A stretch of 33,732 bases of DNA from Candidatus Solibacter usitatus (lineage in GTDB: Bacteria; Acidobacteriota; Terriglobia; Bryobacterales; Bryobacteraceae): the NCBI GenBank assembly GCA_016213245.1, contig JACRBC010000004.1, forward strand, positions 1 through 33,732, read 5' to 3'. Every line of letters starts with the position of its first letter. Position 1 is the stretch's first letter. The position numbers and the translations under genes were made by a program. This document shows positions 2,132 through 2,722 of the stretch, one piece after another. The notes below the pieces were generated by a model that was not told the DNA's origin, did not search any database, and was given only the letters and a program-made list of their open reading frames with translations.

Positions 2132-2383
2132 TCAGGCCACGGGCTGGGGCTTGTTGGCGGCGCGCTGGGCCTTGAGAGCGGCCGAGCGCAGTACCTGCTT
2201 GTTGAAGCGGTCCACGCGGCCCTCGGTATCCACGAGCTTCTGGCGTCCCGTGAAAAACGGGTGGCAGCTGGAGCAGATCTCCACGCGGATGTCGCCCTTA
2301 TGCGTGGAGCGCGTCTTGAACTGGTGACCGCAGGCGCAGATCACACTGATTTCGCTATAGGCGGGATGGATGCCGGCTTTCAT
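2132..2383 (-). CDS. rpmE: 50S ribosomal protein bL31 (zinc-binding type)
   Basis: Ribosomal protein bL31, 83 residues, a component of the large-subunit central protuberance and of the intersubunit bridge to the 30S. It begins [22 protein letters not shown], and the core [27 protein letters not shown] is diagnostic. Cysteines 16, 18, 37 and 40 form the zinc-binding C+ pattern, so this is the zinc-dependent paralogue rather than the YtjA type. The start at 2383 is set by homology; AAGGA lies about 12 nt upstream. A TATACT -10 hexamer at 2413-2408 on the minus strand suggests its own promoter. It sits directly downstream of the small RNA gene at 2457-2687, but a strong terminator separates them. 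Confidence 0.96.
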
Positions 2384-2413: not shown

Positions 2414-2463
2414 GCAGAGCGGCGGGGTCCACGGGGCGAACAGGAGTGAAAGGCGCAAATACA

Positions 2464-2498
2464 AACGCCCCGCAGCCGGACTCCGGCGGCGGGGCGTT
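2464..2498 (-). terminator. Strong intrinsic terminator of the small RNA
   Basis: A 10-bp stem AACGCCCCGC/GCGGGGCGTT is continued, after a single A/G mismatch, by an inner GCCGG/CCGGC stem with a 3-nt loop. On the minus strand a T-rich tract (TTTGTATTT) follows at about 2465-2457. The plus strand lacks a T tract, so it acts on minus-strand transcripts. Confidence 0.85.
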
Positions 2499-2611
2499 AC
2501 GGTAGCCTGTCTTTCTCAGGCCTTCTGCCTGAGCAATGCGCTTGGATGGCCGGCGCATGTCAATCCCTGCCCTTCACTGAAGCCGGGGTGAGAGAGTGAC
2601 CAGAACGAGCT

Positions 2612-2656
2612 TTAGCAGTCGACCACCTCACGCGTGTGATAACTACCAGTTCTCAT
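2612..2656 (-). CDS. 14-residue small ORF behind a perfect extended SD
   Basis: ATG at 2656 to TAA at 2614-2612 encodes MRTGSYHTREVVDC. It is too short to assign to a family. GGAGG ends 14 nt upstream of the ATG, longer than the usual 5-9 nt, but complementarity to the 16S tail continues through CCAGC, so initiation could still be strong or the ribosome could be held. The frame stays open for 31 codons after the TAA, up to a TGA at 2518-2516. The peptide ends in Cys, so it could be a leader peptide, but no regulated downstream gene other than rpmE (beyond a terminator) is present. Confidence 0.45.
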   Translation of the reverse strand: MRTGSYHTREVVDC

Positions 2657-2693
2657 TGTTGCTGGATCACCTCCTTTCTTCAGTGATGGCCTC

Positions 2694-2722
2694 ATCGTAA
2701 TCGAGGCAGGCCGGTCTGTCAA
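2694..2722 (-). promoter_or_regulatory. Sigma-70 promoter of the small RNA
   Basis: Minus strand: a perfect TTGACA -35 box (2722-2717), a 17-nt spacer and a TACGAT -10 box (2699-2694). The expected transcription start is near 2687, 8 nt before the 16S-complementary stretch. Confidence 0.7.

Follow-up and report, generated by a model that had tools for sequence, protein, structure and literature searches.

A Conserved Small-RNA Gene Upstream of rpmE in Candidatus Solibacter usitatus with an Exceptional 16S rRNA Complement and a Short Open Reading Frame

The Locus

On the minus strand of the window, the whole stretch of 33,732 nucleotides from Candidatus Solibacter usitatus that was analyzed, lies a conserved small-RNA gene with an exceptional complement to 16S rRNA and a short open reading frame (ORF); its parts are listed in Table 1. 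The promoter TTGACA-N17-TACGAT and the 14-codon ORF (ATG at 2656 to TAA at 2612) had been proposed in an initial annotation of this DNA and were both confirmed, the promoter (2722-2694) being the sole promoter-like site within 2300-2850, where shuffled sequences contain 0.1 on average. The gap between GGAGG and ATG, previously given as 14 nt, is 13 nt. The terminator-like hairpin also held: a simple terminator scan found none, though a GC-rich hairpin with a T-rich tail is plain in the fold at 2457-2498, and RNAalifold finds in the family alignment a terminator-like stem with two-sided changes. The fold of the window RNA is better than that of 200 out of 200 shuffles (z = -4.9). Judged from the sequence, the gene is likely a stand-alone transcription unit with its own terminator.

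Promoter-like hexamers are visible by eye, uncounted, in most of the homologues viewed. Upstream of rpmE, TGCTATACT resembles by eye rpmE's own extended -10.

TABLE 1. Features of the minus-strand gene (window copy) and its downstream neighbor.
Feature	Position	Strand	Remarks
Promoter, sigma-70-like	2694..2722	(-)	TTGACA 2722-2717, 17-nt spacer, TACGAT 2699-2694
Arm A, CACTGAAG	2678..2685	(-)	Directly 5' of the 16S complement; partner is A'
SD1, AGAAAGGAGGTGATCCAGC, 19-nt exact complement of the 16S rRNA 3' end	2661..2679	(-)	
Mini-ORF, 14 codons, MRTGSYHTREVVDC	2612..2656	(-)	ATG from 2656; stop TAA 2614-2612
GAGGTGGTCG	2620..2629	(-)	Final ORF codons, internal SD-like motif and arm B; end of GAGGTG to stop 9 nt
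Arm A', CTTCAGTG	2575..2582	(-)	Within a hairpin loop in many relatives
Arm B', CGGCCATC	2545..2552	(-)	Complementary to part of arm B
Hairpin CTCAGGC-AGAAG-GCCTGAG	2515..2533	(-)	Predicted fold
GGCTACC	2501..2507	(-)	Recurs among relatives
Probable intrinsic terminator, GC-rich hairpin and T-rich tail	2457..2498	(-)	Plain in the predicted fold
rpmE (ribosomal protein L31)	2132..2383	(-)	Next gene, outside the RNA

The 16S Complement

The perfect 19-nt complement to the 3' end of 16S rRNA, noted in the initial annotation, is borne out (2679-2661, minus strand); this stretch, here called SD1, equals the 16S antisense in a genome of the same order (L026). Its best duplex with the 20-nt 16S tail reaches -37.7 kcal/mol, as compared with a mean of -10.7 kcal/mol (sd 3.3) over 16,854 windows and with -25.6 kcal/mol for the second-best 16S-tail site in the window. 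AAAGGAGGTGATCC is present only once in the assembly of the window, namely at the SD1 locus, so that the assembly presumably lacks the 16S 3' end of the organism itself. No stretch of the family alignment is more conserved than SD1, AAGGAGGTGRTCCA being invariant except for R across 44 aligned rows, and SD1 is paired in the MFE structure of the window copy. In eight distant loci of the same class (L190, L195, L196, L197, L199, L200, L202 and L204) SD1 carries one inserted base (GGAGG-A/T-TGRTCC) and the ORF ending is retained; an unbroken complement is thus not essential. True 16S antisense loci (L026, L205, L206, L208) look different and have no ORF. One of these, L208, comes from the family of the inserted-base members and has the usual GGAGGTGATCC.

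Two further stretches touch on the same subject. 3' of the stop, at 2590-2605, the window has CTGGTCAC, which is found in its genus and could pair with SD1 (GTGATCCAG). A stretch similar to AGCCnCAGGTT-N9-GGCTACC, at 2501-2533 of the window and after B' in L089, L157, L180 and L184, resembles further 16S antisense in part of the family. Such a second 16S-like segment (GGCTACC region) is not general: the mean score was 18.7 vs. 14.6 for shuffled sequences, and only 15 of 56 loci stood at ≤1 in 100 shuffles. The GGCTACC stretch may instead form a local hairpin and pair, in addition, with GGTAG in the ORF.

Conservation and Spread

Conservation among relatives, on which the initial annotation had made its reading depend, was found. 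A DNA search (E < 0.001) retrieved the gene from nine out of nine genomes of the genus, including the window's own, and from 14 genomes of other genera; of 150 genomes in the window's family, 104 contain the pattern AGGAGGTGRTCCAN{20,50}GAGGTGGYC, each of them once, and none contains its reversed control. Seventy-two loci, mostly of this family, with three from the order and ten from similarly worded named contigs, were compared with the layout; two misfits (L018 and L030, in which the fixed ORF ending described below is absent) and 11 duplicates were dropped and 59 distinct loci kept.

Among 396 genomes from across the phylum, three had the exact pattern, and each of them belongs to the window's family. 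An RNA model (R1) gave a match at E up to 1 in 68 of 149 genomes of the phylum, many of these matches being short (~30-40 nt) and weak. Thirty R1 loci were retrieved (L185-L214), one of which is the window. SD1 and the ORF end are present in nine (L186, L187, L188, L189, L191, L192, L193, L198 and L201), and four are 16S antisense (L205, L206, L208 and L211), which by itself scores up to ~20 bits with R1; besides these and the eight loci with the inserted base, the layout is absent in the remaining eight of the 30. The 17 further phylum loci thus found share the ORF ending, some as GAGGTGTCT, GAGGTGCCT or GAGGTGACT; since R1 was built on this ending, they are not independent support. In L189 (similarly in L192), of the same phylum, two GAGGTG stand in one longer ORF (MSYHSSSEVSYRTREVAAT in L189), as if the ending had been duplicated.

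Outside the family set, R1 was compared with 66 of the 110 loci of a second pattern (see below), among the matches listed, and 64 scored at E up to 10, 56 below 0.01. These scores alone are weak evidence of homology because the loci had been pre-selected by SD1 and because L036, L047, L084 and L097, in which the stop at the fixed distance is missing, score as well. The layout-fitting loci are most often named Actinomycetota (among the matches listed; the titles are often MAG labels); other labels, likewise often of MAGs, are Acidobacteria, Krumholzibacteriia, Nitrospinae, Nitrospirae, Zixibacteria, Deltaproteobacteria, Myxococcales, Rokuibacteriota and Spirochaetia. For a putative kinship across phyla the shared anatomy weighs more than the scores.

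The Mini-ORF

In all 59 distinct loci an uninterrupted frame leads from the first ATG downstream of SD1 to the stop, where by chance about 12 would be expected (37.5 stop-free by composition; a third of this, by hand). Because a stop 9 nt after GAGGTG was already a condition of the layout filter, the free test is the frame of the start, not the stop. From ATG to GAG GTG there are 6-13 codons, variable in length and sequence, and the distance from GGAGG to ATG is 11-16 nt. Over 116 pairs, substitutions at codon positions 1, 2 and 3 number 229, 192 and 242; codons with a single change comprise 108 synonymous and 242 non-synonymous ones (expected 85 and 265), which is only a rough measure because the pairs are not independent. 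These counts suggest that translation as such is of more importance than the peptide produced, some constraint on the peptide being possible.

The ending is fixed also outside the family. The pattern AAGGAGGTGRTCCN{25,55}GAGGTGGY, which makes no demand on a stop, matched at least 120 loci, of which the ten belonging to the acidobacterial family set were left out. In 104 of the remaining 110, among the matches listed, GAGGTG is followed at exactly 9 nt by a stop (about five expected; 3/64, by hand); the six without it are L036, L047, L054, L084, L097 and L127, of which L036, L054 and L127 are apparent chance matches. An in-frame ATG, GTG, TTG or CTG is present in 106 of the 110 among the matches listed (42 TTG, 35 ATG, 20 GTG, 9 CTG), a weak test because four start codons were permitted anywhere. 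When the stop codon occupies the A site, the end of GAGG lies 8 nt upstream of the P-site codon. An initiation SD usually has about this spacing from its start codon, so that a terminating ribosome could be held there.

At the start position CTG is seen in L042, L049, L067, L095, L106, L122 and L132 (mostly labeled Acidimicrobiia or Actinomycetes) and ATC in L090 and L145. The rare start codons are perhaps linked to start-codon discrimination by IF3.

RNA Structure

The last ORF codons are predicted to pair with B', which mostly lies 54-66 nt 3' of the stop, to form helix B. In an alignment of 42 rows, helix B together with a hairpin between the stop and B' has 86.4% of its cells paired and 70 changed on both sides, and none of 500 shuffles reached any of the five measures. 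With arm A/A' added (44 rows), four measures were reached by 0-3 of 500 shuffles and the pair types by 35 of 500, and every slide scored lower; the shuffle tests leave relatedness in place. In A:A' itself 94.7% of the cells are paired over the 44 rows, and one column is A-U in 35 and G-C in 6. A:A' would make a pseudoknot with helix B, which is likely, not proven, since arm A varies little.

Unaided, RNAalifold recovered five B pairs and the terminator stem; on the family alignment it did not propose the hairpin and placed a 3-bp stem inside SD1. The nested MFE structure of the window copy (-99.7 kcal/mol) contains eight of the eight A:A' pairs and none of the eight B:B' pairs; forcing B:B' costs 11 kcal/mol, in a nested fold that cannot score A and B together. 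Of the two partners considered for B', B binds more strongly than SD1 in 56 of 57 loci. Loci outside the family show concerted changes in B and B', as in GGTGGTTGTC/GGCAACCACC, GGTGGCTACG/CGTAGCCACC and GGTGGCCAG/CTGGTCACC; among the matches listed, 57 of 101 such loci have a best B helix that no more than 3 of 60 base-count shuffles reach. B' is anti-SD-like because any partner of GGTGG must be so. In Actinobacteria an outer helix GGAC/GUCC was seen by eye.

Proposed Function

The initial annotation had recognized a small-RNA gene, which is indeed conserved; it had missed that the structure covaries and that an SD-like motif stands at constant spacing from the stop. With these features included, we tentatively propose, at somewhat less than even confidence, that the window RNA is a stand-alone, structured, 16S-tethered mini-mRNA, probably translated, that acts as a capture-translate-park-open switch. 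SD1, by virtue of its complementarity, would pair with the 16S 3' tail and capture the 30S subunit. A ribosome would then translate the ORF of 12 to 19 codons, as the kept frame and the published footprints on relatives would suggest; with the peptide under weak constraint, the wording of the ORF would be nearly irrelevant. By the geometry given above, the terminating ribosome would be held at the stop by the internal SD. The held ribosome would keep helix B, which covaries in relatives, open and would free the anti-SD-like B'. Least certain is the output: the RNA might report on, or buffer, free and terminating ribosomes, either as a decoy holding 30S subunits or via the exposed anti-SD stretch acting on other mRNAs. 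Several observations given elsewhere in this text speak against the proposal: the nested MFE structure of the window copy, the RNAalifold result for the hairpin and SD1, the inserted base in SD1 of eight loci, the 11-16 nt between GGAGG and ATG, the missing fixed ending in L018 and L030, and the footprints on many non-coding RNAs.

Other explanations have been considered. The RNA could be a regulatory sRNA that acts in trans, pairing through B' or a different loop with the SDs of target mRNAs, while the ORF mainly recruits ribosomes or protects the RNA. The stand-alone unit with its probable terminator and the classification of the relatives as sRNAs by Rfam fit such a role, as does the anti-SD-like B', with the proviso made above for any partner of GGTGG; but the kept frame and the fixed distance from GAGGTG to the stop would be needless, and we regard a trans-acting sRNA as improbable, though worth keeping in mind. 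A non-translated 30S decoy or hibernation RNA, in which the 16S complement alone matters, would explain why conservation in the family alignment is highest at SD1 and why no other site in the window comes near SD1 as a 16S match; it would explain neither the in-frame ATG in 59 of 59 loci and the fixed stop distance nor the eight distant loci in which SD1 has an inserted base and the ORF end is retained, and is unlikely. Equally unlikely is a functional Ser- and Arg-rich micropeptide as the product of the gene. The frame is kept, MxSGS...REVADC-like peptides recur and non-synonymous changes are slightly below expectation (242 vs. 265), but the 6-13 codons of the body are constant in neither length nor sequence and the codon positions change near-equally; the recurrence of E and V (GAG GTG) is of limited weight because GAGGTG was contained in the search patterns.

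The position of the gene just upstream of rpmE, mentioned in the initial annotation, would be that of a leader-peptide attenuator of rpmE. When L31 was sought by tblastn with the window's protein (E 1e-4), it was found downstream on the same strand in 38 of the 59 distinct loci, in 37 of them at 148-263 nt from the stop and in one at 1130 nt. The tie did not hold, however, for the other 21, which gave no L31 match downstream and of which 18 offer 911 nt of room or more (L161, L177 and L004 have little). Moreover, a probable terminator intervenes, and the pattern loci in other phyla adjoin other genes (longest ORFs, by eye). With rpmE downstream in only 38 of 59 loci the gene is not an rpmE leader; this was dropped as a general role, and attenuation of rpmE is considered very unlikely. 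That the gene is a piece of 16S antisense or another artefact is scarcely credible: 19 nt equal 16S antisense and in part of the family the downstream GGCTACC resembles more of it, but the true antisense loci named above differ and lack an ORF, and the structure covaries.

If the parking of ribosomes proposed for the mini-mRNA is true, bacteria would have an RNA devoted to sensing or buffering free ribosomes via the anti-SD itself. The anatomy leads to clear testable predictions for the start codon, for SD1, for the internal SD and its distance from the stop, and for helix B.

Comparison with Known RNAs

A scan of the window with Rfam gave no family at the curated cut-off, as the initial annotation had supposed; a likeness to Ms_IGR-5 and, less surely, to CC2171 emerged nevertheless. 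The gene can therefore be called undescribed as regards this branch and, as far as searchable, its anatomy, but not as regards every relative.

L31-Actinobacteria (RF03158), which we take to be an rpmE leader, shares with the gene the linkage to L31; it has no match in the window at cut-off. Dual-function sRNAs such as SR1 of Bacillus subtilis, going by the accessible part of the literature, likewise combine a short ORF and a regulatory activity in a single molecule. We know of no 16S complement and no internal SD at the stop in such RNAs.

CC2171 (RF01867), an alphaproteobacterial sRNA of unknown function, has SD1 at its 5' end, and in the model alignment the window copy shares with it the 5' AAAGGAGGUGAUCCAG; the window copy scores 12.7 bits, below the curated cut-off of 75. 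The CC2171 model recovers the superfamily locus in three of four genomes holding it (25.5, 20.6 and 16.9 bits) and a Rhodobacteraceae locus with 44.3 bits, all below 75. The link to CC2171 is weak because the model also matches in 6 of 14 control genomes, in one of them above cut-off. The Rhodobacteraceae locus L215 is CC2171-like: it contains AAAGGAGGTGATCC, a short frame and, further downstream, CACCTCC, and does not follow the GAGGTG-to-stop rule; it may be a distant branch.

Ms_IGR-5 (RF02471), an actinobacterial sRNA of unknown function, represents the actinobacterial branch of the shared layout. The window copy scores 14.7 bits (E 0.34), below the curated cut-off of 45. Of 20 pattern loci compared with the Ms_IGR-5 model, among the matches listed, seven score above cut-off and 13 below; the seven comprise four from Mycobacterium, Mycolicibacterium and Streptomyces and contigs labeled Zixibacteria (L080) and Acidobacteria (L038, L095). 

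For Ms_IGR-5 there are published data on expression, cited here from the accessible parts of the papers: RNA-seq support in S. lividans (PMC8079986), inclusion among the sRNA transcription units of S. avermitilis (PMC8780764) and, for its homologues in M. abscessus and M. smegmatis, significant ribosome reads (PMC4974804), ribosome footprints being, according to the authors of PMC4974804, common to many non-coding RNAs. In these parts, none of the three papers mentions a 16S complement of Ms_IGR-5. Nor are the 16S complement and ORF of Ms_IGR-5 or CC2171 described in the accessible literature (mostly outside subscription papers), including PMC3828370, PMC11701678 and PMC5596092, and the main text of PMC5521070 on sRNA-coded peptides, as far as available, does not contain "Ms_IGR", "Mycobacterium" or "Caulobacter".

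Common to Ms_IGR-5 and the acidobacterial RNA are SD1, a short in-frame ORF ending in EVA-x-x-stop and a predicted pairing of the last ORF codons with a downstream anti-SD-like stretch. The window copy has SD1 and an ORF ending in GAG GTG GYN NNN NNN stop, as the actinobacterial loci do; the helix between the last codons and the anti-SD-like stretch covaries in the alignment that includes the window and is absent from the nested MFE structure of the window. Unlike these features, arm A/A' with the hairpin is described here for the acidobacterial branch only. RNAs that Rfam lists only as "sRNA" appear to belong to a wider group with a precise common anatomy. Beyond that, it is conceivable, though doubtful, that Ms_IGR-5, CC2171 and the acidobacterial RNA form one ancient superfamily of RNA ribosome probes, which would dock the 30S subunit via the anti-SD, have a throw-away ORF translated, park the ribosome at the stop by a second SD placed at the spacing used in initiation, expose an anti-SD mimic through a pseudoknotted switch and so report the availability of ribosomes to other mRNAs.
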